DNA of 63,705 nt, taken from contig JACWDZ010000002.1 of the NCBI GenBank assembly GCA_014653815.1, positions 102,501 to 166,205 of the forward strand, written 5' to 3'. Below are positions 1,950 to 28,288 of the stretch, piece after piece. The translations under genes were made by a program, and so were the position numbers. Within the stretch, counting starts at the first letter, position 1. Each line of letters starts with the position of its first letter. A model generated the notes under the pieces. It did no database searches, had not been told where the DNA came from, and was given only the letters and a program-made list of their open reading frames with translations. The DNA comes from Pelagibacterales bacterium SAG-MED29. GTDB taxonomy: Bacteria > Pseudomonadota > Alphaproteobacteria > Pelagibacterales > Pelagibacteraceae.

Positions 1950-1970
1950 ATTGTTCAATTATTGAACAAT
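1950..1970. promoter_or_regulatory. Operator-like palindrome A2 (GTTCAA-TTA-TTGAAC core)
   Basis: Same 21-bp palindrome as A1, centre to centre 66 bp. It ends 6 bp before the ATG at 1977, leaving no room for a normal ribosome binding site. The mRNA from the nearer promoter would therefore have a very short leader that may itself form a hairpin. A TTG inside the palindrome (1962-1964) is in frame with the gene but is regulatory DNA, not the start. Confidence 0.65.
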
Positions 1971-1976
1971 CTACTT

Positions 1977-2747
1977 ATGCTAATTAACGGAATAATTGGA
2001 TACCCATTAAAGAACCCCAGATCAATACCTATCTGGAAACGTTTTTTTAAAAAAAATAAGATTAAAGCTGGCATGTTTAAATTTGAAATTAAGCCATCTG
2101 ATTTAAAAAGTTTTATTGGAAAAATTAAATCAAATAAAAATTTTAAAGCCACAGCAGTTACAATGCCGTATAAAAATAAGATTTATAATTACGTAGATAA
2201 ATTTGATAATTTTGCAAAAAATGCAAAATCAATAAATTTAATTGTAAAAAGAAATAAAAAATTATTTGGTTACAATACCGATGTTTATGGGGCAAATGAG
2301 TCAATTAAAAAAATAATTAGCAATTATAAATTTATAATTATCATTGGACTTGGTGGTACAGGATCAGCAATTTTTAATTTTTTAAAAAATAGATACAAAA
2401 ATAAAAATTTTTTACTTGTTTCTAAAAAATTTAAGGTCAAAAAAAATGTAAAAACAAAAGTTGTTAAAAATTTAGACAAAAAAATCTTATTAAATAAATC
2501 CTTAATAATTAATTGCTCTCCACTCGGCAGTAATTTGAAAAAATCATTTATTTCAAAAAGCCCAATCAAAAAAAATTTAATAAATTCTATTAATAAAAAA
2601 TCTACAATATTTGATATAATTTATAGTCCACAAAAAACTTTTTTATCAAAACTTCTAAAAAAAAATAAAATTAAATATCTTAATGGAAAATTGATGAATA
2701 CTGTCCAAGCAATTCGAGCTTTAGAAATAGCTTTTGGTAAAAAATAA
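1977..2747 (+). CDS. aroE: Shikimate/quinate dehydrogenase-like (AroE family) oxidoreductase
   Basis: A 256-residue AroE-fold protein. The N-terminal substrate domain shows GYPLKNPRSIP where AroE usually has a GxPxxHSxSP-type loop, so the first substrate-binding serine is replaced. The catalytic lysine (VTMPYK) and aspartate (GYNTD) are present. The Rossmann turn GLGGTGSA lies near residue 115, and a conserved glutamine sits in the C-terminal NTVQA stretch. The family reduces 3-dehydroshikimate with NADPH in the cytoplasm. As the first gene of a glycan operon, tightly coupled to an asparagine-synthase-like gene (1-bp overlap) and followed later by a DAHP-synthase-like gene, it may instead act on a ring or sugar-acid intermediate. 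ATG 1977 is chosen because the earlier TTG lies inside the operator. Confidence 0.75.
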   Translation: MLINGIIGYPLKNPRSIPIWKRFFKKNKIKAGMFKFEIKPSDLKSFIGKIKSNKNFKATAVTMPYKNKIYNYVDKFDNFAKNAKSINLIVKRNKKLFGYNTDVYGANESIKKIISNYKFIIIIGLGGTGSAIFNFLKNRYKNKNFLLVSKKFKVKKNVKTKVVKNLDKKILLNKSLIINCSPLGSNLKKSFISKSPIKKNLINSINKKSTIFDIIYSPQKTFLSKLLKKNKIKYLNGKLMNTVQAIRALEIAFGKK

Positions 2748-4603
2748 TGTGTGGAATATCTGGAATAATAAATTTTAAAAAAAGTCCTAATAAGGAATTT
2801 GTTTATAAAATGAATAATTCCATAAAATATAGAGGCCCAGATCATCAAGCTTTGTGGGATAATAAGTTCTGCAGTATAGGAATTGTTAGGCTCAAAATTA
2901 TAGATTTGAGTGATAAAGCTAATCAACCATTTTTTGATAAAAATATAGGACTTACAGTTATATATAATGGAGAAATTTATAATTATCAGGAAATTAAAAG
3001 AACCTATCTAAGTGGAGAAAAATTTTATAGTGAAGGTGACGGTGAAATAATAATAAAACTTTATAAAAAATTCGGGATAGATTTTATTAATAAGATAAAA
3101 GGAATGTTTTCAATTTTTATAAGCGATGAAATAAAAAAAAAAACTTACCTAATAAGAGATCGTTTTGGAATTAAACAATTATATTATCATTACGATAATA
3201 ACTACAAACAACTTACATTTTGTTCAGAAATTAAAGGGTTGTTCTCAAATCCTTTTATAAAAAAAGAGGTTAACTTTTCTGAAATTTATAAAGTATTAAA
3301 TCTAGGTTTAATAGACTCAAATTATCAAACCTGTTTTGCAAATATCAATAAAGTTCCAAGTGGATCTTATTTAGAATTTTCAAACGAGGGAGTAAAAATA
3401 AACAATTATTACAAAATTGAAGACAAAATTGATGAGGGCCAAGATGATAAAGAAATTTCCTATAAAACCTATTCAATAATGCTTAGAGAAAAAATGATAA
3501 AATCATTTCAACAACATACAACTTTCGATGTTAATGGAGGGATTCATATGTCCGGCGGGAGTGACTCAGCTCTTTTGGCGGCAATGTCTTCTTATACAAA
3601 TAAAGATTTAACTTCTTTCACATTTGATTTTGAAAATAAACAATATAGTGAAATTGAGACAGCAAAAGAGCTGGCTAGATCTGCTAATTTAAAACATAAA
3701 AGTTCAACTTTACTTGAAAAGAACTTAGTTGATTATATTAATAAAGTTGTAGAAATTCAGCATGAGCCCTTTTCATCACTAAGAATATTGTCACAAAACT
3801 TTTTATTCGAAACTTTTAAAGACGACAGCAAGGTAATATTAGATGGATCCGGAGGAGATGAAATTGGCGCGGGCTATAGATATTATATATTACCATGGTA
3901 TTTAGATATGGTGGGCCTTGATTTAAAAAATCTTAATTCAAGACTCTTAAAAACTATAGGAAAACATGAAAGTTTATCAATAAATAATTTTGTATTAGGT
4001 TCATTAACTAATTATTTAAAACCAGGAATGTCTACTCAAGATGGAAGTATGTTTGAAAAAAAAGGTTTTTTAAATAATGATTTTTTAAATACTTATAAAA
4101 AGGAAGATAGCTTTATTAAAAGACCATTTAAAAGTCATTTACGAAATGCTCAATATATAGATTTTCACTATTCAAAACTTCCTAGAAGCTTAAGGTATAC
4201 TGATAGAGCTTCTATGAGGGCAAGTGTCGAAGCAAGACTACCTTTATTAGATCATGAAGTTGTCGAGCAGTGCTTTCAGATACCTTCAAAGTATAAATTT
4301 TTGTTTTCTCAAGATAGAATAATTCTAAAAGATTTATTTAAAAAAAATATTAATCAAAAATTACTTTTTAAAAATAAAAAAACAATAGCTGATCCGCAAT
4401 CAGCATGGATAAAAAAAAATTTATTCAACTATATTAACGACACATTAAGCTCTGGGAATTTTTTATCAAAAGACATTATTGATAATCTAAAAGTAAAAAA
4501 ATATATTGATAAAATAAGTAAAAGTGATGAACATTTTAATTCTTCTTTTTTAATCAGAATTTTATTAGTAGAATGGTGGAGAAAGGGTGTAGTGGGAAAT
4601 TAA
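2747..4603 (+). CDS. asnB: Asparagine synthase (glutamine-hydrolysing)-like amidotransferase
   Basis: 618 residues in the AsnB layout. Mature Cys2 (MCGISG) is the class-II glutaminase nucleophile. The glutaminase domain covers about 1-210, and the synthase domain carries the ATP-pyrophosphatase loop SGGSDS near residues 269-274. AsnB hydrolyses glutamine and uses the ammonia with ATP to amidate a carboxylate. Copies inside O-antigen and capsule clusters are thought to amidate sugar acids rather than aspartate. Here it overlaps the aroE-like gene by one base (TAATG) and sits among ulosonic-acid genes, so amidation of a glycan carboxylate is plausible. Both catalytic centres look intact. Confidence 0.85.
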   Translation: MCGISGIINFKKSPNKEFVYKMNNSIKYRGPDHQALWDNKFCSIGIVRLKIIDLSDKANQPFFDKNIGLTVIYNGEIYNYQEIKRTYLSGEKFYSEGDGEIIIKLYKKFGIDFINKIKGMFSIFISDEIKKKTYLIRDRFGIKQLYYHYDNNYKQLTFCSEIKGLFSNPFIKKEVNFSEIYKVLNLGLIDSNYQTCFANINKVPSGSYLEFSNEGVKINNYYKIEDKIDEGQDDKEISYKTYSIMLREKMIKSFQQHTTFDVNGGIHMSGGSDSALLAAMSSYTNKDLTSFTFDFENKQYSEIETAKELARSANLKHKSSTLLEKNLVDYINKVVEIQHEPFSSLRILSQNFLFETFKDDSKVILDGSGGDEIGAGYRYYILPWYLDMVGLDLKNLNSRLLKTIGKHESLSINNFVLGSLTNYLKPGMSTQDGSMFEKKGFLNNDFLNTYKKEDSFIKRPFKSHLRNAQYIDFHYSKLPRSLRYTDRASMRASVEARLPLLDHEVVEQCFQIPSKYKFLFSQDRIILKDLFKKNINQKLLFKNKKTIADPQSAWIKKNLFNYINDTLSSGNFLSKDIIDNLKVKKYIDKISKSDEHFNSSFLIRILLVEWWRKGVVGN

Positions 4604-4605
4604 AA

Positions 4606-5649
4606 GTGAAAAAAAATATATTTCAAACAATCCGTCAAGCAGAAGAATATGCAAGGAAAAAAATTAGAAAAGGCAGCTTTGAGTGGCTTCAAGCAGGCGC
4701 GGAAGATAATTACACTCGAGACCAAAATGTTTATGATCTTCAAAAAGTTAAAATTTTACCTCAACATTTAACTGGAATTAAAAAAATAAATTTTTCTTGT
4801 AATATTTTTGGAAAAAAAATTAAGTCACCACTGATACTCTCTCCAATGGGTCATCAAACACAATTTCACAAAGATGGTGAAATTGAAACTGCCAAAGCTT
4901 TTAATAAAAAAGAAAGATTTTCCTTTTTTAGCACCCAGGGCAGAATGCACTTAAAAGATATAAGGCTGAAAAATAAAAATGCTTATATTGGATGGGAAAT
5001 ATTTCCATTTGGCTCATTAAGTTGGATTAAGAATGAAATTAAGATAGCTGAAAATCAAAAATGTTTCTCAATTTGTTTATGTATCGATGCAAATGTTAGA
5101 TCACATAGATACCAAGACAGAGAAATAAATTATGATGCAAGAAAATTTGGAAGAAGAACAAATCCATTACCACCAAACCCAAAAATTGCTGTAAATTATG
5201 ACTGGTCTTTGATCTCTTGGATAAAAAAAAATACGAAACTTCCGATTATTGTTAAAGGCATAATGACAAAAAAGGATGCATTAGAAGCCATGAAAAGAAA
5301 AGTAGATGCAATATGGATATCTAATCATGGAGGTAGAATGTTTAATTCAGGAATAAGTTCTTTTGAAGCATTAAGAGAAATTTCAAATCTGGGAAAAAAA
5401 AGTACAAAAATCTTTGTAGACGGCGGTGTTAGAAAGGGGAGTGATATTATCAAATATTTATGTGCTGGAGCAGACTTAGTTGGCATTGGTAGGCCAGCAA
5501 TGTACGGTTTAATTCTAGAGGGCTCTGAAGGAGTTAGAAGAGTATTTAATATTTTAGAAAACGAGTTATCAACTGCAATGGTAAATGGTGGATTTTCGAA
5601 CTTACAACAAATGAAAAAAGATAGATTTAAAAAAAATGAAAAAAAATAA
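4606..5649 (+). CDS. FMN-dependent alpha-hydroxy-acid dehydrogenase family protein
   Basis: TIM-barrel protein of the glycolate oxidase / lactate dehydrogenase (LldD) family. It has an FMN-binding GAEDN near the N terminus, a SPMGHQ loop, IVKGI with the FMN lysine, and SNHGGR with the catalytic His and Arg. Family members oxidise 2-hydroxy acids to 2-oxo acids. SNHGGR is followed by MFN rather than the usual QLD, so the substrate pocket may differ. The start is uncertain: GTG at 4606, 2 bp after the asnB stop, gives the usual N terminus, whereas ATG at 4573 would overlap asnB by 31 bp. In this operon it could oxidise a sugar-acid precursor (inference). Confidence 0.8.
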   Translation: MKKNIFQTIRQAEEYARKKIRKGSFEWLQAGAEDNYTRDQNVYDLQKVKILPQHLTGIKKINFSCNIFGKKIKSPLILSPMGHQTQFHKDGEIETAKAFNKKERFSFFSTQGRMHLKDIRLKNKNAYIGWEIFPFGSLSWIKNEIKIAENQKCFSICLCIDANVRSHRYQDREINYDARKFGRRTNPLPPNPKIAVNYDWSLISWIKKNTKLPIIVKGIMTKKDALEAMKRKVDAIWISNHGGRMFNSGISSFEALREISNLGKKSTKIFVDGGVRKGSDIIKYLCAGADLVGIGRPAMYGLILEGSEGVRRVFNILENELSTAMVNGGFSNLQQMKKDRFKKNEKK

Positions 5650-6352
5650 AGTTATTTGCATTATCCCTGCAAGAGGCGGATCTAAAGGTTTAAAACTAAA
5701 GAACTTAAGAAAAATTTGTGGTAAACCACTGATCTCTTATCCAATTAAAGCAGCTAAAAAAAGCAAGGTTTGTGACAAAATAATAGTGAGCACAGATTCA
5801 AGATTAATTGCTAAGGAGGCTATAAAATTTGGTGCTGAGGTACCTTTTTTAAGAAAAAAAAATTTTTCAGGAGATCTTATTACAACTGAGGCAACATTAA
5901 AAAATGCTTTAAGCGAAACAGAGAATTATTTTGGAGAAAACTATGATATATGTGTTTTTCTTACCTGTACCAATTTATTTAGACAAGCCAATTGGATCAG
6001 GAAAGCAGTAAACATATTAAAAAAAAATAGTCATATTGATAGCGCATTTTCAGTTCATGGGTTTTATAAGCACGTTTGGCATAAAGAGGGAAAAAAATTT
6101 AAAAAAGTTTCAAAGTGGATGAGATCTTATACTTCAAGACAGGTGGGACAAAGATTATATAGAGAAGATACTGGACTCGCTTCAGCAACTAGAGCTAAAT
6201 TTTGGAGAAAAGGAAAAAGAATTGGAAAAAAAGTTAGCTTTATAATTAACAACGAGCCTTTTACAGGCATTGATATTCACACTAAACAAGATCTTTATTT
6301 AGCAGAGATGGCTATGAGATATGCAAAAAAAAATAAACTCATAGATCATTAA
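5636..6352 (+). CDS. CMP-sugar (acylneuraminate-type) cytidylyltransferase, first copy
   Basis: 238 residues of the NeuA/KdsB-like nucleotidyltransferase family. The CTP-binding signature IPARGGSKG is at residues 10-18, and a GIDIHT motif near residue 217 stands where the metal-binding IDID-type motif usually lies. These enzymes activate 2-keto-3-deoxy sugar acids as CMP sugars. It overlaps the FMN dehydrogenase end by 14 bp. It is clearly different in sequence from the second cytidylyltransferase at 11891-12622, which sits beside neuB. This copy is separated from neuB and lies upstream of the DAHP/KDO8P-synthase-like gene, so it may activate a different acid (inference). Confidence 0.82.
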   Translation: MKKNKVICIIPARGGSKGLKLKNLRKICGKPLISYPIKAAKKSKVCDKIIVSTDSRLIAKEAIKFGAEVPFLRKKNFSGDLITTEATLKNALSETENYFGENYDICVFLTCTNLFRQANWIRKAVNILKKNSHIDSAFSVHGFYKHVWHKEGKKFKKVSKWMRSYTSRQVGQRLYREDTGLASATRAKFWRKGKRIGKKVSFIINNEPFTGIDIHTKQDLYLAEMAMRYAKKNKLIDH

Positions 6353-6356
6353 TCAT

Positions 6357-7211
6357 ATGAACTCAATCCCAATAGTAATTTTTGCTTACAATAGGTCGTC
6401 TCATTTTAAACGTGTGATGATTGCCCTTCAGAATAGTAAAGTAAAAAATAAAATTTACATGATTTTAGATGGAGCTAAAAATAGAAATGACAGAATCATT
6501 CAAAAAGATATTTTAGGTTCAGTAAAAGTAATTGGGAATTACAATAAATTTAGTAAAAATCAAATTACTGTTATTAGAAATAAGAAAAATTTGGGACTAG
6601 CTGGATCAATTAATAAAGGCTTAGATAAGATTTCAAGAATTCATGATTCTTTTATAGTCCTAGAAGATGACACGATTCCATATAGAAAATTAGTCACTTT
6701 TTTTACTAAATGTTTAAAAAAATATAAAAATAATAAGGATATTGGAGCTATTTGTGGTTATCAATTTATGAAATTTGATAAAAATCCAAAAAAAATAGAA
6801 ACAAAGTTTTTGAAACATTTTATACCATGGGGTTGGGCGACTTGGAGCTCAACTTGGAAAAATTATAGGTTTAAAAAAAAAGGGATTAAAAATAATAATC
6901 TTAATATTCCTCCATTCATTAAAAAAATTAGAAAAAATATTTTAGATAAAAAAAATAAAAAAAAATATTGGTCTCTTAACTTTATGTTAAATAATTATAT
7001 TAATAAAAAATATTTTGTTTATCCCAATATCCCGCTAGTTAAAAATATAGGATTTGATGGTACAGGGACAAACTCTTTAGTAACAGATGAATTGTATGTT
7101 TTTGAGAAAAAAATTCATTCCATAAAACTGTCTAATTTCTCTTTAGTGAAAAAAGATTTACTTAAGCAAGAAAAAAAACTAAACAAAGTGATAAAAAATT
7201 TTTATAATTAA
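6357..7211 (+). CDS. GT-A fold glycosyltransferase
   Basis: 284 residues. The protein opens with PIVIFAYNRSSHF, typical of GT-A nucleotide-binding domains. It has an acidic LEDDT motif at about residue 100 in the position of the metal-binding DxD, as in GnT-I-like and HlpA-like transferases, then WGWATWSSTW, a Trp-rich acceptor-side stretch. The C-terminal third is Lys/Asn-rich. It probably transfers a sugar to a growing surface oligosaccharide on the cytoplasmic face. It lies 4 bp after a CMP-sugar synthetase, but CMP-sugar use cannot be shown, since GT-A enzymes mostly use NDP sugars. Confidence 0.65.
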   Translation: MNSIPIVIFAYNRSSHFKRVMIALQNSKVKNKIYMILDGAKNRNDRIIQKDILGSVKVIGNYNKFSKNQITVIRNKKNLGLAGSINKGLDKISRIHDSFIVLEDDTIPYRKLVTFFTKCLKKYKNNKDIGAICGYQFMKFDKNPKKIETKFLKHFIPWGWATWSSTWKNYRFKKKGIKNNNLNIPPFIKKIRKNILDKKNKKKYWSLNFMLNNYINKKYFVYPNIPLVKNIGFDGTGTNSLVTDELYVFEKKIHSIKLSNFSLVKKDLLKQEKKLNKVIKNFYN

Positions 7212-7215
7212 ATAT

Positions 7216-8244
7216 ATGAATATAGCAATAGTTGGTTACGGAGCAGTGGGAAAGCATTATATTGAACTACTTGGATCTTTTAAAAAAGTAAAAAAAATTT
7301 TTTTGATCGAAAAAAATAAAATTAAAAATCTTTATAAAAAATGTGTAATTACTACTTTTAAAGATATTTCAAAAAAAGAAATAAAATTAGATTATGCAAT
7401 TATCTGCACTCCTTCTGGCTCACACTATCTTCATGCCAGCTATTTTTTAAAAAAAGGCATTGATACGCTTATAGAGAAACCGTTTGTACTTTCATTAAAA
7501 GACGCAAAAAAATTAGTTTCACTAAAAAAGAAAACCAAAACTAAATGTTGGGTAGCTTTTCAAAATAGGCATAATTTAGCTATTGAACGGGGAAAAAAAA
7601 TTATCAAAAAAAAAAAATTTGGAAATCCGTTTTTTGTTGACTCCGCATTGTATTGGCACAGAAGTAAAAAATATTATTCTACAGGATGGAGAGGAAAATA
7701 TGTTAGTGATGGCGGTGTTTTATTCAATCAGTCTATACATTTACTAGATATAATGATTTATTTTTTTGGACCAGTAAAAAAATTTAATGTCTTTGGTGCT
7801 TTTAACAAAAAAAAACTTCAAGCAGAAGATTTGATAACACTTAATTTAGTTCACAAAAACAATATAATTTCAAATCTTAAAGCAACGACTAGAGCAGATA
7901 GAGACTATAGAATGTCAATGGATGTGTTATGCGATAAAGGAAGATATTTGATCAAAGATATAAGTTTAAATAAGATTTTTTATTTTACCAAAACTCATTT
8001 AAAAATAGACAAATTACATTCCGAAGATTTTCCTAGAGGACTTGGGCCAAAATCAGGTATGGGTAATGGTCATAAAAAAATTCTTAAAGAGTTCCTCAAT
8101 GAAAAAATATTTAAATCTTCAAAAGATTTAGATATAGAGAAAAATTTGTATGTTTTAAAACTAATCCATTCAATTTATAATTCATTATTTAAAGAAAAAA
8201 AATATAGTGTTGTTAGAGAAACAGAATTTCAATACAAACGATAG
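7216..8244 (+). CDS. Gfo/Idh/MocA family sugar oxidoreductase
   Basis: 342 residues. The N-terminal Rossmann domain begins IAIVGYGAVGKHY and includes CTPSGSH. The EKPF motif near residue 91, with the conserved lysine, is diagnostic of the family, and a C-terminal alpha/beta substrate domain follows. Members oxidise or reduce sugars, often at C3 of UDP-sugars, with NAD(P). A second family member lies at 14783-15781 on the other strand. Substrate unknown; the neighbouring amidotransferase and ulosonate genes suggest a nucleotide sugar or sugar acid. Confidence 0.8.
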   Translation: MNIAIVGYGAVGKHYIELLGSFKKVKKIFLIEKNKIKNLYKKCVITTFKDISKKEIKLDYAIICTPSGSHYLHASYFLKKGIDTLIEKPFVLSLKDAKKLVSLKKKTKTKCWVAFQNRHNLAIERGKKIIKKKKFGNPFFVDSALYWHRSKKYYSTGWRGKYVSDGGVLFNQSIHLLDIMIYFFGPVKKFNVFGAFNKKKLQAEDLITLNLVHKNNIISNLKATTRADRDYRMSMDVLCDKGRYLIKDISLNKIFYFTKTHLKIDKLHSEDFPRGLGPKSGMGNGHKKILKEFLNEKIFKSSKDLDIEKNLYVLKLIHSIYNSLFKEKKYSVVRETEFQYKR

Positions 8245-8251
8245 GATAAAA

Positions 8252-9154
8252 ATGAAGAAATATTTTAAAAAAGATCTTTCAAATAAATTTCCCACGAAGG
8301 ATATTACTTATGATGACAAGAAAAACAAATTACCTCTTTCAACCTCAAAGAAAAAAAAAAGAATTGTTGATCTAGGGAATGGAGTTAAATTTGGATCCCA
8401 TGATATACCAATTATAGCTGGACCTAATGGAGTCGAAAGTCATAAATTAATGTTAGATGTAGCAAAATGTTTAGTAAAAAATAAGATTAAAATTATTAGA
8501 GGCCATGCTTATAAACCTTTAACTTTTCCTTACAGATCTTCAAAATACAAGGAATCTAAAAATCAGGGAATGGATATCATGGATGATATTAAGAAAAGTT
8601 TTAAATTAAAGGTTGTTACAGAAATTACAGAAATAAAATATTTAGATAGAGTTTGTAAAACGGCTGATGTTTTACAAATAGGATCAAGAAATATGCAAAA
8701 TCTTGAGCTATTAAAGGAATGTGCATTAACAAAAAAACCATTGATCTTGAAAAGACATTTTGGAGCTAGCTTAAGAGATATGCTTGGAGCTGCTGAACAT
8801 ATATTAATAGAAGGAAATGAAAAATTAATTTTATGTGAGAGAGGAGTTTCTATACCACACACTCATAGAGATACCTCAAGGTTTGCTTTGGATATTCAAG
8901 CTATTCCTGCTTTGAAGGAAATAACAAATTTTCCAATTATTTCAGATCCTAGTCACGCGTCTTTTTGGGCACCCTGGGTTCCAAGCTTAACTTTTGCATC
9001 GATAGCGGCCGGATGTGATGGATTGATTATAGAGATACACAAAAATCCAAAAAAATCTGCTGTTGACCCATTACAACCTTTAGATTTTAGACAATTTAAA
9101 AACTTACTTAAAATTTCAAGAGCTGTGGCAAGATCAATTAAAAGAAAAATTTAA
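8252..9154 (+). CDS. DAHP/KDO8P-synthase family (PEP-condensing) aldolase with Asn in place of the metal Cys
   Basis: 300 residues, closest in layout to type I-beta DAHP synthase: LGNG at 41-44, IAGPNGVES at 55-63, KPLTFPYRSS at 88-97, LKRHF and LCERG, DPSH ending at His235, IIEIH with Glu261, Asp272. The family condenses PEP with an aldose phosphate to give a 3-deoxy-2-ulosonate. Two departures stand out. The metal-ligand Cys of AGPCS is Asn59, as in metal-independent KDO8P synthases, and the KPRTS arginine of DAHP synthases is Leu90. His, Glu and Asp ligands remain. The ATG at 8252 follows the previous stop by 7 bp; a longer reading frame from 8207 would overlap that gene. It could be a metal-independent synthase for an unusual surface ulosonate. 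Confidence 0.78.
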   Translation: MKKYFKKDLSNKFPTKDITYDDKKNKLPLSTSKKKKRIVDLGNGVKFGSHDIPIIAGPNGVESHKLMLDVAKCLVKNKIKIIRGHAYKPLTFPYRSSKYKESKNQGMDIMDDIKKSFKLKVVTEITEIKYLDRVCKTADVLQIGSRNMQNLELLKECALTKKPLILKRHFGASLRDMLGAAEHILIEGNEKLILCERGVSIPHTHRDTSRFALDIQAIPALKEITNFPIISDPSHASFWAPWVPSLTFASIAAGCDGLIIEIHKNPKKSAVDPLQPLDFRQFKNLLKISRAVARSIKRKI

Positions 9155-9176
9155 TTTACTAAGTTCTTTTTTTAAA

Positions 9177-10010
9177 ATGACAAAAAAATTTAAAAGAGTA
9201 ATAGCAAGGTTAGACGTTAAAGGCCCAAATGTAGTTAAAGGAGTCCAAATGGAAGGTCTAAGAGTTTTAGGCCAGCCAGAAGAATTTGCAGAGTATTATT
9301 ATAATCAAAACGCTGATGAAATAATTTTTTCTGATATTGTTGCAAGTCTCTATGGAAGAAATAATTTAATAGACGTAGTTTCTAAAACAGCAAAAAATAT
9401 ATTTATTCCCTTGATAGTAGGCGGTGGTATAAGGACTTTAAAAGATATTTATGATCTGCTCAGAGCAGGGGCAGATAAAATTTCTCTTAATTCTGCTGCG
9501 ATAAAGAATCCTAAATTTATTCAAGAAGCGGTAAAAGAATTTGGTTCTTCAACTATCACGATTTCAGTCGAGGTAAATTTCTTGAATAATAAATATGAAA
9601 TTTTCTACAACAATGGAAGAGAACCAGCAAATATTGATTTAAATGAATGGATTAATGAATGTCAAGATAGAGGCGCCGGTGAAATATTATTAAGCGCAAT
9701 ACATAAAGATGGCACTGGCAAAGGTTATGATACAAATTTAATCGATCAAGTTAAAGAAATTGTTTATATACCTCTAATTGTTCAAGGAGGAGCAGGATCT
9801 ATTAAAGATATTGAGCATGTATCAAACTATGAAATTGACGGTATCGTTTTATCATCAGCATTACATTATACAAAAATTTTACAAGACGACAATGTTTATA
9901 GAGAAGGTTCGTTAGAAGGTAATAAAGAATTTTTGAAAAGCAAAAAAAACTTTTTAAATTTTGAAAAACTCAACATCGAAATGATAAAAAAAGCAGTTAG
10001 CAATTTATAA
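9177..10010 (+). CDS. hisF: HisF2-like imidazole glycerol phosphate synthase cyclase paralogue for sugar amidination
   Basis: A 277-residue (beta/alpha)8 barrel of the HisF family. The first catalytic Asp is kept (RLDVKG, Asp13), and the phosphate loops VGGGIRT and QGGAG are present. The second catalytic Asp of HisF (Asp130 in Thermotoga) is Glu132 (SVEVN). With hisH and the amidotransferase directly downstream (3 and 1 bp gaps), this matches the HisF2-HisH2-WbpG/PseA set. In that set glutaminase ammonia is passed through the barrel to make acetamidino sugars such as amidino-pseudaminic or -legionaminic acid. It is probably not the histidine-pathway enzyme. Confidence 0.85.
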   Translation: MTKKFKRVIARLDVKGPNVVKGVQMEGLRVLGQPEEFAEYYYNQNADEIIFSDIVASLYGRNNLIDVVSKTAKNIFIPLIVGGGIRTLKDIYDLLRAGADKISLNSAAIKNPKFIQEAVKEFGSSTITISVEVNFLNNKYEIFYNNGREPANIDLNEWINECQDRGAGEILLSAIHKDGTGKGYDTNLIDQVKEIVYIPLIVQGGAGSIKDIEHVSNYEIDGIVLSSALHYTKILQDDNVYREGSLEGNKEFLKSKKNFLNFEKLNIEMIKKAVSNL

Positions 10011-10013
10011 TTT

Positions 10014-10658
10014 ATGAGCCCAAAGTGTTTAATACTAGATTATGGCATGGGAAATATTAAAAGCATTAAAGCTGCATGTGAATATAGTGATATAGAAACA
10101 ATTGTCTCAAATAAAAAAAAAGATATTAATAGCAGCAATGCTTTAATACTTCCCGGTGTAGGAAGTTTTAAAAAAGCAATGGAGAACTTAACAAATCTTG
10201 ATTTATTGGAAGTAATTAAAGATCAAGCTCTAAACAATAAGCCAATCTTAGGCATCTGCTTAGGAATGCAACTTTTATTTGAAGAGAGTGAAGAATTTGG
10301 TAAAACAATTGGGCTAGGATTAGTCAAGGGTAGAGTTAAAAAATTTGATATAAAAAAAATAAACAATAATAAGATACCACACGTTGGCTGGTCTTCTATT
10401 TTTAAAAATAAACAAAAATGGGAAGATACTATTTTAGCAAAAATTGAAGAAAACCAAAAAATGTACTTTGTTCACTCATTTTATGTCGAAGCTCAAGATG
10501 AAAGCGTTATATCTTCAAAGACAAATTACGGAGGGTTTAATTTTTGCTCTTCAGTAAATAAAGAAAATCTGTTTGCAACACAGTTTCATCCAGAAAAAAG
10601 TGGTCGGGAAGGTCTAAAAATATTTAATGAATTTAGTAAAGTAATTAAACAAAATTAA
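10014..10658 (+). CDS. hisH: HisH2-like glutamine amidotransferase subunit
   Basis: A 214-residue class-I glutaminase. It opens with LDYGMGNIKS, has a PGVGSF loop, the nucleophile Cys82 in GICLGMQ, and the catalytic His and Glu in QFHPEKS near the C terminus. All three triad residues are present. It hydrolyses glutamine and channels ammonia to its HisF partner, the gene just upstream. Placement before the N-acetyl-sugar amidotransferase points to nitrogen supply for glycan amidination rather than histidine synthesis. Confidence 0.88.
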   Translation: MSPKCLILDYGMGNIKSIKAACEYSDIETIVSNKKKDINSSNALILPGVGSFKKAMENLTNLDLLEVIKDQALNNKPILGICLGMQLLFEESEEFGKTIGLGLVKGRVKKFDIKKINNNKIPHVGWSSIFKNKQKWEDTILAKIEENQKMYFVHSFYVEAQDESVISSKTNYGGFNFCSSVNKENLFATQFHPEKSGREGLKIFNEFSKVIKQN

Positions 10659-10659
10659 T

Positions 10660-11886
10660 ATGGATAAAAATAAAACTTGTTATAATCTCCCTGAAAAAAT
10701 AGTTTTTTGTAAGTATTGTGTTCTCTCAAATCAAAGACCTCACTCAGTAGCAGAATTTAAACATAAAAAAAATCGTGAGGGAGCTGTTTATTTAGAAATT
10801 GATAAAAACGGAAAATGCGATGCATGTAAGATGGCCGAATGGAAAAAAGATAAAATCAATTGGATAAAAAGAGAAAAAGAACTTATGGAACTTTGCGACA
10901 AATACAGAAAAAAAGATGGAAGTTATGATTGTATTGTTCCAGGGAGTGGAGGAAAAGATAGTAGTTTTCAATCTTATATACTCAAAAACAAATACGGAAT
11001 GAACCCGCTTACAGTTACTTGGCCTCCAATAATGTATACTGACTATGGTTATAAAAATTTTAAGAGTTGGATTGATACTGGCTATGACAATATATCTTTT
11101 CATCCAAATGGAGACGTGATGAAGAAATTAGTGTCATTATCTACAAAAAATTTATTACATCCCTTTCAGGCTTTTATTTTAGGTCAATATAATATGCCTC
11201 CTAAAATTGCTTCAAAATACGATATAAAATTAATATTTTATGGAGAAACTCACGCTGACTATGGAAGTCCAATTATTGAAACCAGCAAATCATTAAGAAG
11301 TAAATCTTTTCATACCTTTTCAAACCTAAAAGATATTTATATAGCTGGAACAAAGTATTCAGATTTAAGAGAGAAATATAAATTTTCAGAACGTGATTTA
11401 AGTAATTTTTTACCGATGAAAGAAGAGGAATATGAGAAATCTGACATAAAGGTTCTTGCACTTGGTTATTACCTAAGATGGGAGCCTCAAGAAGTTTATT
11501 ATCATGCAGTTGAAAACTCTGGTTTCAAGCCTAGACCATTTCGTTCACAGGGAACATATAGTAAATACAGCAGTATCGACGATAAAGTAGATGATCTACA
11601 TTATTATACAACTTATATTAAATTCGGAATTGGCAGAGCTACGTACGACGCTGCTCATGAAATAAGAAACAAACATATCACTAGAGATGAAGCAGTTGAA
11701 TTAGTGGAAAAATATGACGGTGAATTTCCCGATAGATACTTTAAAGAAATTATGGAGTATATAAATATTAAACCTGAAGAATTTTTTGAAATATGTGATA
11801 AATTTAGATCTCCTCATCTTTGGACTAAAAAATCAAACTCTTGGAAATTAAGACATACTGTAGGCAAAAGAGGAGAGGACGATTAA
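10660..11886 (+). CDS. N-acetyl sugar amidotransferase (WbpG/PseA/LegA family)
   Basis: 408 residues. The N terminus has two Cys pairs (FCKYC and CDAC, about residues 17-46), typical of this family and probably metal-binding, followed by an ATP-pyrophosphatase loop PGSGGKDSS near residue 95. The family converts an acetamido group on a sugar to acetamidino using ammonia from HisH/HisF. WbpG acts in Pseudomonas O-antigen synthesis, and PseA/LegA-type proteins act on pseudaminic or legionaminic acid. Starting 1 bp after hisH, it completes the three-gene amidination module. The target is presumably the nonulosonic acid made by the three genes that follow (inference). Confidence 0.88.
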   Translation: MDKNKTCYNLPEKIVFCKYCVLSNQRPHSVAEFKHKKNREGAVYLEIDKNGKCDACKMAEWKKDKINWIKREKELMELCDKYRKKDGSYDCIVPGSGGKDSSFQSYILKNKYGMNPLTVTWPPIMYTDYGYKNFKSWIDTGYDNISFHPNGDVMKKLVSLSTKNLLHPFQAFILGQYNMPPKIASKYDIKLIFYGETHADYGSPIIETSKSLRSKSFHTFSNLKDIYIAGTKYSDLREKYKFSERDLSNFLPMKEEEYEKSDIKVLALGYYLRWEPQEVYYHAVENSGFKPRPFRSQGTYSKYSSIDDKVDDLHYYTTYIKFGIGRATYDAAHEIRNKHITRDEAVELVEKYDGEFPDRYFKEIMEYINIKPEEFFEICDKFRSPHLWTKKSNSWKLRHTVGKRGEDD

Positions 11887-11890
11887 AAGC

Positions 11891-12622
11891 ATGACAAGAA
11901 ACATATTTGTTCATATTGCCGCGAGAGGGGGTTCCAAAAGTGTTAAGAATAAAAATATTAGAAATTTTGATGGAAGACCATTAATTGTCTGGTCTCTTTT
12001 ACAAGCAAAAGAATTAAAAAAAAGATTTAAAAAAAAGATAAAAATTGTGGTTAGTTCTGACTCAAAAAAAATTCTTAAAATTTCTAAAGATTATGGCACT
12101 GATTTATTAATAAAAAGACCGAGAAAATTATCAAGCGACTTTTGTTCAAAATTTTTTGTTTGGAAACATAGTGTTAAAATAATTACTGAAAAATATAATT
12201 TATCAAATCAAGATATTTTTCTTGATTTAGATTGCACATGTCCATTAAGGAAATTTGAAGATATATATAAAATTTTAAACTTATTTCTTAAAAGAAAAAA
12301 AGAAAATAAGTTTTTTGACGGGATTATAACCACGACAATAGCTAAAAAAAATCCATATTTTAATCTTGTTGAATTGAATAAAAACAAACAACTTAAAATT
12401 TCAAAAAAAATCAATAAAATGCCAGTGAGAAGACAAGATGCTCCTAAAGTATTTGAACACGTGGCAAGTATTTATGCTCTGAAGCCAAATTTTATTAAAA
12501 ATAAGAAATCGCTTATGTCTGGTAAACTTTATGGTTTTGATGTTGATCCATCATCTTCAATAGACATTGATAGCAATTTAGACTTTAAACTAGTATCTGT
12601 CTTAAAAAAATTTAAAAATTAA
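11891..12622 (+). CDS. neuA: CMP-nonulosonate (neuraminate/legionaminate-type) cytidylyltransferase, second copy
   Basis: 243 residues. The CTP signature is AARGGSKS (residues 9-16) in place of the common PARGGSKG. RRQDAPKVFEH lies near residue 180 and DVDPSSSIDID near the C terminus, with the acidic metal/CTP residues. It activates a nonulosonic acid as its CMP derivative. It lies 4 bp after the amidotransferase and abuts neuB, so this is the cytidylyltransferase that belongs to the neuB-neuC product. The RRQD stretch fits LegF/PtmB-type enzymes better than classical sialic NeuA, but that is a judgement from memory. Confidence 0.82.
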   Translation: MTRNIFVHIAARGGSKSVKNKNIRNFDGRPLIVWSLLQAKELKKRFKKKIKIVVSSDSKKILKISKDYGTDLLIKRPRKLSSDFCSKFFVWKHSVKIITEKYNLSNQDIFLDLDCTCPLRKFEDIYKILNLFLKRKKENKFFDGIITTTIAKKNPYFNLVELNKNKQLKISKKINKMPVRRQDAPKVFEHVASIYALKPNFIKNKKSLMSGKLYGFDVDPSSSIDIDSNLDFKLVSVLKKFKN

Positions 12623-13666
12623 ATGAGAAAATTTAAAATAGAAAACAGGTTGGTAGGCGAAGGCTCAGTGCCACTTATAATTGCCGAACTTGGTATAAAT
12701 CACAATGGTTCTTTAGATAATGCAATTTATTTAGCCGATAAAGCAATACAGGCTGGAGCTGAAATAATAAAGCATCAAACTCATATCCCATCAGACGAAA
12801 TGAGTCATCATGCTAAAAAAATTATACCGCTTAATGCTAAAAAAAATATTTATGATTTAATTTCAAAGTGTTCATTAAAAGAGAAAGATGAAAAAAAATT
12901 AATGAATTATATTAAATCAAAAAAAACAATTTTTATTAGCACACCTTTTTCCAGAGCTGCAGCTGACAGACTCGCAAGGTTCAAAATACCTGCATTTAAA
13001 ATTGGTTCAGGAGAGTGCAATAACTATCCTTTGATTGAACATATATGTAAGTATAAAAAACCAATAATTTTAAGCACAGGAATGAATTCAATTTTATCAG
13101 TTAAACCCTCTGTAAAAATAATTGAAAAATACAAAATACCTTATGCCTTACTTCATTGTACAAATCTATATCCAACTCCAGATAAACTAGTAAGATTAAA
13201 TTGCATGCTCCAACTTAAGGAAGCTTTTCCCAACGCAGTTATTGGACTATCAGACCATACAGTTAATAATTATTCTAGCTATGCAGCACTAGGTTTAGGA
13301 GCAAGTATTATTGAAAAGCATTACACTGACACAAAAAAAAGAAAGGGCCCAGATATTTCTGCATCAATGGATAAAAAAGAGTTTTCAGATCTTTTGAAAG
13401 CATCAAAAACAATCTTTGAAAATTTAAAATTTAAAAAGAAAAAATTGCCAACTAAAGAAGAGAAATCTACAATGAGATTTGCTTTTGCTTCAGTGGTCTC
13501 AATAAAAAATATTACAAAAGGGGAAAAGTTCTCAAAAAAAAATATTTGGGTAAAAAGACCTGGAACAGGAACTTTCTTAGCAAAAGATTTTTATAGGATA
13601 CTAGAAAAAAGAGCCTCTAGAAATATAAAAATTGATAGTTTTATAAATAAAAAAGATATTGCATGA
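12623..13666 (+). CDS. neuB: N-acetylneuraminate/legionaminate synthase (NeuB family)
   Basis: 347 residues. The TIM-barrel domain (about 1-280) has the NeuB hallmarks IAELGINHNG, STPFS, KIGSGE, STGM and GLSDHT, then IIEKHYTD and RKGPDISASM. A C-terminal SAF (antifreeze-like) domain follows (about 290-347). The enzyme condenses PEP with a ManNAc-type 6-carbon sugar to give a nonulosonic acid. GPDISASMD differs from the GPDHxxSL form common in sialate synthases and looks closer to legionaminate synthases (tentative). The gene abuts neuA and overlaps neuC by an ATGA junction, so the three are one translational unit. Confidence 0.9.
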   Translation: MRKFKIENRLVGEGSVPLIIAELGINHNGSLDNAIYLADKAIQAGAEIIKHQTHIPSDEMSHHAKKIIPLNAKKNIYDLISKCSLKEKDEKKLMNYIKSKKTIFISTPFSRAAADRLARFKIPAFKIGSGECNNYPLIEHICKYKKPIILSTGMNSILSVKPSVKIIEKYKIPYALLHCTNLYPTPDKLVRLNCMLQLKEAFPNAVIGLSDHTVNNYSSYAALGLGASIIEKHYTDTKKRKGPDISASMDKKEFSDLLKASKTIFENLKFKKKKLPTKEEKSTMRFAFASVVSIKNITKGEKFSKKNIWVKRPGTGTFLAKDFYRILEKRASRNIKIDSFINKKDIA

Positions 13667-14790
13667 AGAAAAAAATATTTTTTATAACTGCCACTAGAGC
13701 AGATTTTGGAAAATTAAAATCTTTAATTAAAATAACTTCAAAAAGCAAAAAGTTTGAAGTTAAAATAATTGTCACGGGCATGCATAACATGAGAGAATTT
13801 GGAAGCACTTATATGGAAGTAGAAAAAAATTTTGGAAAAAGAATCATTAGGCTAGAGAATCAAAAATTGGGAGACAATCTTAATGAAATATTAAAAAACA
13901 CTATTTATTATTTTTCTAAAATTGTTCAAAAACATAAACCAGATTTAATTGTTGTTCATGGTGACAGAATAGAAACTTTAGCTTGCGCTTTGGTAGGTTC
14001 AATGAGTCATATTCTTACAGCCCATATAGAGGGAGGAGAAGTATCTGGTACGATAGATGATACTATAAGGCATGCTGTTACTAAATTGTGTCATGTACAT
14101 TTTGTAGGCTCAATATCAGCGGGAACAAGAGTAAGAAATATGGGAGAAAAAAATTATGGTATTTTTAATATTGGTTCTCCCGACATCGATTTAATTCATA
14201 GCAAAAATTTACCATCAATCTCATTGGTAAAAAAAAGATATGAAATTGATTTCAAAGAATATGCAATTTTACTTTGGCATCCAGTAACTTCAGAGCTTAA
14301 AAATTTAAAAAATGAAACCACTAAATTGGTAAATTTTGTTAACCAGCTGGAGATGAATACAATAGTTATTTATCCGAACAATGATCCTGGATCTAAAATA
14401 ATTTTAGATATATACAAAAAATACTTAAATCGAAAAAAAACATTTTTACAGAGAAATTTTAGATTTGAATATTTTATAACTCTTCTTAAAAATGCAAAAT
14501 TCATAATTGGAAACTCAAGCTGTGGAATATATGAGGCACCTCAAGTTAACACTCCGGCAATTAATATTGGATCAAGACAACACAAAAGATCTAAGAGTAA
14601 AATGATTAAGAATATAAACATTCATGACCTGGAAATAAATACAATTAAAAACTTTTTAAAATCTTATAAAATTAGCAGAAAAAGTTATTATGGAGATGGT
14701 AATAGCTTTAAAAAATTTTTTAAAATAATAAATAAAAAAAGTTTTTGGCAGATTGATACTCAAAAGTATTTTAATGATAGAGTTAATTAA
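13663..14790 (+). CDS. neuC: UDP/GDP-GlcNAc-type 2-epimerase, hydrolysing (NeuC/LegG family)
   Basis: 375 residues, GT-B-like fold. It opens FFITATRADFGKL and has VVHGDRIETLA, HIEGGEVSGT, DDTIRHAVTK and IGNSSCGIYE, all typical of hydrolysing 2-epimerases that release ManNAc or its 2,4-diacetamido analogue for NeuB. The last gene of the operon, it ends in an 8-bp tail-to-tail overlap with the opposing oxidoreductase. No LegB dehydratase, LegC aminotransferase or LegH acetyltransferase is in the window. The sugar is therefore either plain ManNAc (sialic route) or is made by genes outside the window. Confidence 0.9.
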   Translation: MKKKIFFITATRADFGKLKSLIKITSKSKKFEVKIIVTGMHNMREFGSTYMEVEKNFGKRIIRLENQKLGDNLNEILKNTIYYFSKIVQKHKPDLIVVHGDRIETLACALVGSMSHILTAHIEGGEVSGTIDDTIRHAVTKLCHVHFVGSISAGTRVRNMGEKNYGIFNIGSPDIDLIHSKNLPSISLVKKRYEIDFKEYAILLWHPVTSELKNLKNETTKLVNFVNQLEMNTIVIYPNNDPGSKIILDIYKKYLNRKKTFLQRNFRFEYFITLLKNAKFIIGNSSCGIYEAPQVNTPAINIGSRQHKRSKSKMIKNINIHDLEINTIKNFLKSYKISRKSYYGDGNSFKKFFKIINKKSFWQIDTQKYFNDRVN

Positions 14791-15781
14791 CGTGTTCAAA
14801 TTTTTTTGATAAAATTGATTTTTTTGCAGCAAAGATAATTTTCTCTGCTTGAGAAATTGCTTTAAAAGCTGGACTTTTATATTTTTTGTTTTTAATTTTT
14901 TTTAATATATCTAAATTTTGTCTTTTAAAAATGCTATTACGATTTACTGAGAGTTTTGGTTTAATAGTTTTTGAAATATAATTTTTTTGAATTAATAAAT
15001 TTTTTTTATGTAAATTACATTTTATTTCCTCATCTTCGAAAATAATTTCAATAAATCTGTCCTCTTTATTCTTGTATGAGTAGTCTAGATTTATATTTGA
15101 AATAACCCCATTTTTTTTATGTTTAATAATCAGGATAATTGAATTTTCAACATTATTAGTTTTAAGTCGTGAATTTGTTTTTACACAAAAAACACTTTGG
15201 GCTTCGCCAAAAAAATTAATAGCTAGGTCTATTTCATGAGAACAAGTCAACAAAACACCTCCACCTAATTTTTTTTGAGATGCATAGGAATCTCTAAAAT
15301 CTTCCCAAGGGTGCCAATCAGGTAAAAAAGTTTTTAAATGAAAATTTGCATATCTTAATTTTTTTTGCTTTTTTTTAATAATCTTTTTCATTATCTTAAT
15401 CCTTGGATCAAACCTTAACTGATAACCGGGAAAAAGATTTATCTTAAATTTTTCATATAATTTTTTCATTTTATCTAAATCTAAATTGGTGGAAGCTAAC
15501 GGTTTCTCCACTAGAACATTAAGATTTTTAAAAATAATTTTTATCAAAGTCTTTACGTGTTTACTTGAGGGATTTGCTATTACAAAAAGAATAAATTTTT
15601 TATTTTTTATATCTTTAAGTTTAAAAATTTCTTTATATTGAAAATTTATCTTTACTTTAGATCTTTTTCTTTTTTCTCTATAAAAAAATATATTATAACC
15701 TAAGGACTTAAAAATTTGACCGTGTCTAATTCCTATCGAGCCTTTACCAATAATGCAGATATTTTTTTCATTTTTTACCAT
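14783..15781 (-). CDS. Gfo/Idh/MocA family oxidoreductase
   Basis: About 332 residues from the ATG at 15781, 335 if the upstream ATG at 15790 is used. I prefer 15781 because it overlaps the preceding SDR stop closely. The N-terminal Rossmann stretch is CIIGKGSIGIRHG, and the EKP motif carrying the conserved lysine follows at about residue 90 (LVEKPLAST). The substrate domain contains LTCSHEIDLA. It forms a two-gene unit with the SDR upstream. Probable NAD(P)-dependent sugar oxidoreductase; substrate unknown. Such pairs occur next to legionaminic-acid and flagellin-glycan genes (context). Confidence 0.78.
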   Translation of the reverse strand: MVKNEKNICIIGKGSIGIRHGQIFKSLGYNIFFYREKRKRSKVKINFQYKEIFKLKDIKNKKFILFVIANPSSKHVKTLIKIIFKNLNVLVEKPLASTNLDLDKMKKLYEKFKINLFPGYQLRFDPRIKIMKKIIKKKQKKLRYANFHLKTFLPDWHPWEDFRDSYASQKKLGGGVLLTCSHEIDLAINFFGEAQSVFCVKTNSRLKTNNVENSIILIIKHKKNGVISNINLDYSYKNKEDRFIEIIFEDEEIKCNLHKKNLLIQKNYISKTIKPKLSVNRNSIFKRQNLDILKKIKNKKYKSPAFKAISQAEKIIFAAKKSILSKKFEHVN

Positions 15782-28172: not shown

Positions 28173-28288
28173 GCCTGGTAATTATTGCGAAAGGGCCACA
28201 CCCGATCCCATTCCGAACTCGGAAGTTAAGTCTTTCAGCGCCGATGGTACTTTGTCTTAAGATATGGAAGAGTAGGACGTTGCCAGGC
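28173..28288 (+). rRNA. rrf: 5S ribosomal RNA
   Basis: 116 bp. GCCTGGTAAT and its 3' partner TTGCCAGGC form the terminal helix I. The internal landmarks CCACACCCGATCCCATTCCG and GAACTCGGAAGTTAAG are the conserved bacterial 5S loop A-helix III region. No 16S or 23S sequence is found upstream in the window: the 28 kb to the left is all glycan genes. This agrees with the SAR11 arrangement in which a hypervariable island separates 23S from 5S. Confidence 0.95.

Follow-up and report, generated by a model that had tools for sequence, protein, structure and literature searches.

Synthesis of 2-keto-3-deoxy acids requires a phosphoenolpyruvate (PEP) synthase, and the NeuA-like class of enzymes activates 2-keto-3-deoxy sugar acids. 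In two known systems these functions fall to KdsA and KdsB, which serve 3-deoxy-D-manno-octulosonic acid (Kdo), and to NeuB and NeuA, which serve the nonulosonic acids. Here we analyse a stretch of 63,705 nucleotides from the SAR11 genome Pelagibacterales bacterium SAG-MED29 (contig JACWDZ010000002.1, positions 102,501 to 166,205; hereafter the window). Four of its genes encode a Gfo/Idh/MocA oxidoreductase (GfoA), a PEP-condensing synthase related to 3-deoxy-D-arabino-heptulosonate 7-phosphate synthase (DAHPS; the relative is called DAHPSL), an AroE-like ketoreductase (AroEL) and a NeuA-like cytidine monophosphate (CMP) transferase (CMP1). The same core set is found next to sugar-coat genes in SAR11, in Prochlorococcus and in further bacteria, most of them marine. 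We consider it likely, from the families involved, that the four proteins make up a pathway of their own, leading to a CMP-activated 3-deoxy-2-ulosonic acid distinct from both Kdo and the NeuB-type nonulosonic acids. The product would be used for surface glycans and perhaps, in some Rhodospirillales-type bacteria, for flagellin. The conserved association of the genes, their status as subfamilies, their altered residues and the lack of NeuB nearby in most loci are directly established.

Few cells in the sea are as abundant as those of SAR11 and Prochlorococcus. Little is known of the chemistry of their surfaces, which phages have to recognise. If the core set does make a new acidic sugar, it would offer a testable handle on that chemistry and an example of two shikimate-type enzymes jointly re-used for sugar-coat synthesis.

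A conserved four-gene core

An alignment of three DAHPSL proteins was scanned against 84,980 species, each represented by one genome, using two short DAHPSL motifs, one of which contains KPL. This yielded 144 stretches that fitted the pattern, 110 of which encode a relative, and the best 80 of the 110 were analysed as loci. Profiles of the neighbouring genes, trained on the same loci, were run against every reading frame of the 80 loci at a threshold of 40 bits, and neighbours were counted within 6 kb of DAHPSL in the 49 loci whose sequence extends 6 kb or more to either side (full-flank loci). AroEL was present in 44 of these, CMP1 in 43 and GfoA in 39, with all three in 37. Across all 80 loci, AroEL adjoins DAHPSL in 55 and GfoA does so in 45, where adjoining means the same strand and no more than 200 nt from one open frame to the next. 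Relatives of the family 2 glycosyltransferase of the window (GT2) lie two genes ahead of DAHPSL in nine.

A reading of the window from its letters alone (the sequence-only reading) had proposed a route made up of five genes: AroE-like, AsnB-like, flavin mononucleotide (FMN)-dependent hydroxyacid dehydrogenase, first CMP transferase and DAHPS-like. Three of these, the AroE-like, CMP transferase and DAHPS-like genes, belong to the core, and the pairing of the first CMP transferase with the DAHPS-like gene in particular is upheld by the count given above (43/49). The AsnB-like and FMN genes are accessories found in a minority of full-flank loci (AsnB family in 13/49, on either strand and with one of the 13 a 42-bit match; FMN gene in 10/49), and the suggestion that the AsnB-like enzyme amidates the ulosonate finds no support in this pattern. 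The list was also incomplete, as it did not name GfoA, which is core, nor GT2 and the HisF-like/WbuZ, HisH and WbuX genes. A role for the AroE-like enzyme as a reductase in the route is plausible from its family. The FMN enzyme has a near full-length match in only three of 247 genomes of the order, the window genome included, and no relative of it was found in the viral_contigs collection.

Other neighbours include radical SAM genes (8/49 full-flank loci) and a glycosyltransferase fused to a second CMP-transferase-like domain (34/49). Examples of such genes, with a family 2 glycosyltransferase, are found at L033:10731-12107, where the two domains were assigned, at L051:7580-8938 and at similar places in other loci. 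In two loci, the CMP transferase is itself fused to an O-methyltransferase-like domain (L032:4474-6216 and L033:6881-8632), and its neighbours are a radical SAM/SPASM gene and a further Gfo gene, with a class I/II aminotransferase in L032 and not in L033; judged by these predicted domains, this set is a differently tailored version of the module. A protein of about 170 amino acids follows AroEL in five loci (for example L170:8486-8998) and is encoded by the second gene after DAHPSL in L105; the L170 protein is without a Pfam match and has a faint NeuB-profile match of 18 bits.

By record taxonomy, the 80 loci comprise 65 from Alphaproteobacteria, six from Cyanobacteriota, two from Gammaproteobacteria, two without full rank, and one each from Actinomycetota, Acidobacteriota, Myxococcota, Bdellovibrionota and Deltaproteobacteria, though many are single-cell or metagenome assemblies and single odd phyla may be mis-binned. 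AroEL, GfoA and CMP1 accompany DAHPSL in all six Cyanobacteriota loci and in the Acidobacteriota locus. The association is also seen when the two shikimate-type families are searched separately. Among 385 alphaproteobacterial genomes, the AroEL profile gave six matches at 282-333 bits (next best 191) and the DAHPSL profile six at 494-541 bits (next best 280), and these fall in the same six genomes (G000, the window genome, with G356, G358, G373, G564 and G628), for which the probability by chance is 2.3e-13, assuming independent genomes. In this test scoring was limited to six first-look candidates per genome, and the same number of genomes was drawn for both profiles. Three of the six (G358, G373 and G564) appear to duplicate loci of the scan (L107, L096 and L080, respectively), while G356 and G628 are not among the 80. 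AroEL and DAHPSL are neighbours in G356, G358, G564 and G628.

Plasmid and phage records returned 113 and 16 matches to DAHPSL, respectively, all below 60% identity (the best among those listed about 41-42%), and the annotated ones among those listed, which for plasmids were 30 of the 113, are DAHPS or KdsA; among the matches listed, none pointed to a module on a known plasmid or phage. Viral collections yielded five loci (L115-L119, from IMG/VR) at 34-36% identity to the DAHPSL alignment. The DAHPS-type proteins of L115, L116 and L119, the three of the five examined, retain the metal-binding Cys discussed below and are not module members. The L115 protein has the HxH motif in common with DAHPSL and branches beside it on a very long branch.

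AroEL as an altered relative of shikimate dehydrogenase

AroEL was compared with canonical AroE in an alignment of 28 rows of each, the AroEL rows being 22 of 66 cluster members, the window protein and five from other genomes (L138, which duplicates the window gene, was excluded). Positions follow what we take to be E. coli AroE numbering. The catalytic residues K65 and D102 and the ring-contact residues N86, Y215 and Q244 are common to all 56 rows. In contrast, the S14/S16 carboxylate pair is incomplete in AroEL: position 14 is Ala in 22 and Pro in six of the 28 rows, compared with Ser in 26 and Thr in two canonical rows, so that S14 is lost in 28/28, while Ser16 is kept in all. Position 15 is Arg in 28/28 AroEL versus 8/28 canonical proteins, and a His of canonical AroE is replaced by Trp in 28/28. 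AroEL is split from canonical AroE by a branch with a Shimodaira-Hasegawa-like approximate likelihood ratio test (SH-aLRT) support of 99, and the window protein falls below the curated AroE cut-off (TIGR00507, 125.8 versus 200.2 bits). Its AlphaFold model (predicted local distance difference test, pLDDT, 95.4) best matches the shikimate dehydrogenases 5dzs, 2hk8 and 2hk9 in the PDB. Both the AroEL profile (139 bits) and the fold also recover 7cok, a 5-ketofructose reductase; the T. citrea 5-ketofructose reductase is described as related to shikimate dehydrogenases (PMC7954740). By analogy, 7cok is an AroE-family precedent for acting on a sugar ketone.

The retained residues would also suit an alternative in which the product of DAHPSL and AroEL is carbocyclic, as known from secondary metabolism. 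A quinate-like or aminoshikimate-like acid would then serve as a decoration or an acyl group, and the CMP transferase would belong to another process encoded in the island. The DAHPS family does include the secondary-metabolic BagF/FevY enzymes, whose profile DAHPSL matches at 152 bits against a cut-off of 700. However, CMP1, which a carbocycle would not need, is linked as tightly as AroEL (43 versus 44 of 49), and no AroB- or AroD-like family occurs among the annotated genes of the window, the neighbours in other loci being only partly annotated. We regard this alternative as unlikely, though it survives better than those considered below.

The altered synthase site of DAHPSL

Residues were surveyed in 81 DAHPSL proteins, from the 80 loci and the window. 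The metal-ligand Cys of the AGPC motif is Asn in 81/81, compared with Cys in all five annotated type Ib DAHPS controls, and the Arg of KPRT is Leu in 81/81, compared with Arg in 5/5 controls. An Arg is inserted after PY in 81/81, and all 81 carry an HxH motif. The remaining metal ligands (His, Glu and Asp) and the five PEP-site Lys/Arg columns examined are kept in 81/81. At the Cys position the two KdsA controls differ, with Cys in Roseivivax and Asn in Pseudomonas, and the loop that corresponds to the Cys-Asp-Gly-Pro loop of KDO8P synthase reads DPLQ in 34/34 aligned DAHPSL rows versus CDG or SDG/SDS in five controls. In KDO8P synthase, a Cys-to-Asn change is reported as required to convert a metal-dependent into a metal-free enzyme, with further changes in the Cys-Asp-Gly-Pro loop for good activity (PMC3052366), and in the Thermotoga DAHPS the R and T of KPRT are described as contacts of erythrose 4-phosphate (PMC6362186). 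From these residues, DAHPSL probably catalyses a metal-free condensation with a substrate other than erythrose 4-phosphate.

DAHPSL forms one group in a tree (SH-aLRT 96) built from 41 of the 81 proteins and 11 others, with three viral rows on very long branches beside the group. Its AlphaFold model (pLDDT 89.4) is a TIM barrel that lies nearest to 1rzm, a type Ib DAHPS, and then to KDO8P synthase. This fold, together with the fact that DAHPSL is the only PF00793 gene detected in the window genome (80% complete), would be expected if it were a plain extra DAHP synthase or a KDO8P synthase, giving DAHP or Kdo for lipopolysaccharide. We think this improbable. The window protein retains the fold and the PEP-site Lys/Arg residues yet falls below both curated cut-offs, for type Ib DAHPS (TIGR01361, 236 versus 267.75 bits) and for KdsA (TIGR01362, 89 versus 314 bits), and the metal and erythrose 4-phosphate sites are changed in every DAHPSL protein. 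To our knowledge, neither an AroE nor a Gfo partner is required to make Kdo.

The genomic background also argues against this alternative. A PF00793 match is present in 103 of 117 genomes of the order, and the large majority of those listed score 234-260 bits, copies that we take as KdsA from score and length. Five of the 117 genomes hold a copy at 160-183 bits (G000, G024, G026, G107 and G116), and in the four other than the window genome this DAHPSL-scoring copy stands together with a KdsA-scoring one, again by score and length only. Since these four SAR11 genomes appear to carry both, DAHPSL looks like an optional extra gene in SAR11, and replacement of KdsA by DAHPSL was rated low. In the window genome (951 kb, 46 contigs), contig C23 carries a second AroE, with a Shikimate_dh_N score of 99 bits versus 57-59.5 for AroEL, and contig C6 carries a type II DAHPS that is interrupted by the contig end. 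Because of this better-scoring second AroE and the type II DAHPS, DAHPSL and AroEL are not for primary metabolism, and a gene set of this kind would caution those who build metabolic models of streamlined genomes against annotating its members as plain aroF and aroE.

Independence from the NeuB route

Two PEP-condensing synthases (DAHPS-like and NeuB) and two CMP-sugar synthetases had been placed in one operon by the sequence-only reading, and the family assignments agree. The HisF-like, HisH and WbuX genes (9177-11886) lie directly 5' of CMP2-NeuB-NeuC and suggest, by family, an amidinated nonulosonic acid or N-acetyl sugar; in L036, HisF-like, HisH and WbuX genes likewise lie near NeuB and NeuC. 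Going by their family names, HisF/HisH/WbuX, CMP2, NeuB and NeuC look like a second nonulosonate route of the ordinary kind, probably including an amidination.

Both sets lie near each other in the window and in L035, L036 and L037, and NeuB is 5.5 kb from DAHPSL in G192 (apparently L061), so a single pathway might be envisaged in which the AroE-like, Gfo and first CMP transferase proteins modify or vary the NeuB product. However, NeuB occurs within 6 kb in only 7 of the 49 full-flank loci and is lacking within that distance in 42. L047 carries AroE-like, AsnB, FMN, CMP1, GT2, Gfo and DAHPS-like genes in the order of the window, followed by WbuX and HisF/HisH, with no NeuB or NeuC match in the 20.9 kb examined, and L040 carries the core with the FMN and AsnB genes and no NeuB match in 20.9 kb. 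The shorter G192 stretch, L033, shows no NeuB because it starts beyond that gene. A single pathway is thus very unlikely, and the separate route with its own CMP transferase that had been proposed is supported in outline. The five genes of the earlier list do co-occur elsewhere: in eight of 13 loci with a full FMN gene (L035, L037, L040, L044, L046, L047, L049 and L060), AroEL, AsnB (above 400 bits), CMP1 and DAHPSL are all within 10 kb, and three of the eight (L040, L044 and L047) have no NeuB within 10 kb, the right flank of L044 being only about 1.4 kb.

A proposed pathway

The nearest solved structures to CMP1 are NeuA/CMP-Neu5Ac synthetases, and its cytidylyltransferase domain carries the ARGGS...KN motif, with A, R, G, S, K and N invariant in 27 rows; it scores 139.2 bits with the PseF profile TIGR03584, below the cut-off of 205.7. 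As a PEP synthase makes 2-keto-3-deoxy acids and a NeuA-like enzyme activates them, the presence of DAHPSL and CMP1 together points to an ulosonate route. The GfoA family profile matches 3q2i (281 bits) and 3q2k (278 bits), with the next solved protein at 118; we take these two structures to be WlbA of C. violaceum and B. pertussis. WlbA oxidises C3 of UDP-N-acetylglucosaminuronic acid (UDP-GlcNAcA).

From family chemistry, DAHPSL would first condense PEP with an aldose, probably in a metal-free reaction and probably not with erythrose 4-phosphate, to give a 3-deoxy-2-ulosonate. GfoA may then oxidise, and AroEL reduce, one ring carbon. Shikimate dehydrogenase acts at a ring position that two bonds separate from the carbon carrying the carboxylate, and WlbA does likewise on a hexuronate; because the corresponding position in a 3-deoxy-2-ulosonate pyranose is C4, this is our best guess for the redox site, with inversion at C4 as the outcome. 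Such an inversion would employ all four core enzymes and explain why GfoA and AroEL travel together. Alternatively, GfoA or AroEL may act on the aldose precursor, or the two may act at different positions. CMP1 would next activate the anomeric position and the linked glycosyltransferase would transfer the sugar, both steps following from family chemistry. In this SAR11, the AsnB-like and FMN enzymes may further modify this residue or a neighbouring one.

In some carriers the destination may be flagellin. In G358 (apparently the Nisaea nitritireducens locus L107), DAHPSL has a flagellin gene about 3 kb away, and a tetratricopeptide repeat (TPR) protein is encoded beside GfoA. In G628, from the same family, a TPR protein is encoded beside CMP1 and the flagellin genes are elsewhere, and G356 and G564 have no flagellin on the contig of the module. 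In Caulobacter, the flagellin glycosyltransferase FlmG is described as modular and as dependent on pseudaminic acid (PMC7591256). The flagellin and TPR genes near the module recall FlmG, and the arrangement suggests that some carriers may place the sugar on flagellin.

Several observations weigh against a dedicated ulosonate pathway. Among the full-flank loci, seven have two of the three partners only, one has a single partner and four (L083, L091, L109 and L113) have none of AroEL, GfoA and CMP1. AroEL and DAHPSL are on different contigs in G373 and are 5.5 kb apart in the window, and the three nearest relatives of the window locus (L035, L036 and L037) have NeuB 1.2-6.3 kb away. The conservation of Leu in the KPRT motif is partly selected, as KPL lies inside one search motif, and the L032 DAHPSL has a faint match to the NeuB family (PF03102, 31 bits against a cut-off of 22.1, versus 181 for PF00793). 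The choice of C4 is an argument from geometry only. UDP-sugars are presumably the substrates of the nearest solved relatives of GfoA, which is awkward for a route through a free ulosonate. No phosphatase or aldose-supplying enzyme was identified near the module, where not every neighbour is annotated. Finally, no biochemistry was found in the literature for any module member, and no paper on the gene set or its product was found in the open-licence literature, an absence that is weak evidence.

A fuller version of the dedicated pathway can be offered tentatively, as a possibility that we rate somewhat below even. The module would be a third CMP-ulosonate route beside those of KdsA and NeuB. 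Its synthase, descended from type Ib DAHPS and working without a metal, would use a non-standard aldose that may lack a phosphate, and a ring carbon of the ulosonate would be inverted or installed jointly by an oxidase resembling WlbA and a reductase resembling AroE. The product would belong to a class of sugar acid not yet described. The FMN, AsnB, radical SAM, aminotransferase and methyltransferase genes would tailor it further, and it would be displayed on the cells of SAR11, Prochlorococcus, SAR116 and SAR86.

Gene content and setting of the window

The 13 genes at 1962-14790 on the + strand overlap or are separated by at most 22 nt, because of which the run looks like one operon. Families were assigned with Pfam and NCBIfam, and all genes named by the sequence-only reading are present and open on that strand (Table 1).

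Table 1 Genes of the window operon, and flagellin-associated genes at related loci
Feature	Set	Position	Strand	Profile evidence
AroE-like ketoreductase (AroEL)	core	1962-2747	+	Shikimate_dh_N 57 bits (Pfam); TIGR00507 125.8 bits, below cut-off 200.2
AsnB-like glutamine-dependent amidotransferase	accessory	2747-4603	+	TIGR01536 338 bits, above cut-off
FMN-dependent 2-hydroxyacid dehydrogenase/oxidase-like	accessory	4573-5649	+	PF01070 271 bits
CMP-ulosonate synthetase 1 (CMP1), NeuA-like (putative)	core	5636-6352	+	PF02348 90 bits; PseF TIGR03584 139.2 bits, below cut-off 205.7
Family 2 glycosyltransferase (GT2)		6357-7211	+	PF00535 28 bits
Gfo/Idh/MocA oxidoreductase (GfoA)	core	7216-8244	+	PF01408 69 bits
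DAHPS-like PEP-condensing synthase (DAHPSL)	core	8207-9154, likely start ATG 8255	+	PF00793 160 bits; TIGR01361 236 bits, below cut-off 267.75
HisF-like WbuZ/HisF2 amidation subunit	other pathway	9177-10010	+	TIGR03572 (WbuZ) 243 bits, below cut-off 299.7
HisH-type glutaminase subunit	other pathway	10014-10658	+	TIGR01855 220 bits, above cut-off
WbuX N-acetyl sugar amidotransferase	other pathway	10660-11886	+	TIGR03573 345 bits, above cut-off
CMP-sugar synthetase 2 (CMP2), NeuA-like	other pathway	11891-12622	+	PF02348 48 bits; PseF 98 bits, below cut-off
NeuB nonulosonate synthase	other pathway	12623-13666	+	PF03102 224 bits and SAF; TIGR03569 363 bits, below cut-off 399.65
NeuC UDP-GlcNAc 2-epimerase	other pathway	13663-14790	+	TIGR03568 368 bits, above cut-off
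Flagellin and TPR-repeat genes near module, one bacterial family		L171:5435-6589, 13028-15121; L170:4139-6373 (TPR)		

A 5S rRNA gene lies at window position 28174. In Pelagibacter HTCC1062, the sole 23S and 5S genes are described as flanking hypervariable region 2 (HVR2), a 48 kb island of mostly cell-surface genes (PMC2217521). From the 5S gene and this description, the operon would sit at the expected place of a surface-polysaccharide island. That HVR2 is hypervariable and that AsnB and FMN vary would fit a chance gathering of unrelated cargo, but for the core this is already contradicted by its recurrence outside SAR11 (all six Cyanobacteriota loci and the Acidobacteriota locus) and by the presence of AroEL and DAHPSL in the same six of 385 genomes. 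It may still apply to the AsnB and FMN genes, but for the set as a whole we find it barely credible.

Elsewhere in the same island, 16 kb from DAHPSL, the window encodes a radical SAM/SPASM protein (24953-25855), relatives of which lie inside the module in G128 (6e-53) and G192 (5e-49). Beyond NeuC, a convergent pair on the - strand (14783-16566) encodes a Gfo/Idh/MocA protein and a short-chain dehydrogenase, and genes of the same two families are also near NeuB in L072 and L075. A short open reading frame at 290-622 is apparently the tail of one of more than 1,850 amino acids that starts upstream of the window (compare L034:4929-10500).

Comparison with known systems

The Kdo pathway (KdsD, KdsA, KdsC and KdsB) resembles the module in using a PEP synthase of the PF00793 fold followed by PF02348 CMP activation. 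However, the module synthase is nearer to type Ib DAHPS than to KdsA, CMP1 is nearer to NeuA than to KdsB (151 versus 61.5 bits at best), and we know of no counterpart in the Kdo pathway of the AroE-like and Gfo partners. The nonulosonic acid pathways (NeuB, PseI or LegI with a NeuA-type enzyme) share the NeuA-like CMP activation, the surface or flagellin destination and the many tailoring variants, whereas the module lacks NeuB within 6 kb in 42 of 49 loci and DAHPSL is only a distant relative of NeuB.

With the shikimate enzymes, type Ib DAHPS and AroE, the module has in common the folds, the PEP-site residues and the catalytic Lys and Asp of AroE. It differs from them in the changed metal Cys and erythrose 4-phosphate Arg (81/81) and the loss of one carboxylate Ser (28/28), and it is accessory, standing beside an ordinary AroE and a type II DAHPS. 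The WlbA/WbpB sugar 3-dehydrogenases resemble GfoA by sequence only (3q2i and 3q2k, presumably WlbA), and the module as defined is without the UDP-GlcNAcA dehydrogenase and the WlbC and WlbD partners of that system. Finally, the 5-ketofructose reductase 7cok belongs, like AroEL, to the AroE family and reduces a sugar ketone, but its substrate is a free ketose and we know of no link of 5-ketofructose reductase to CMP-sugars.

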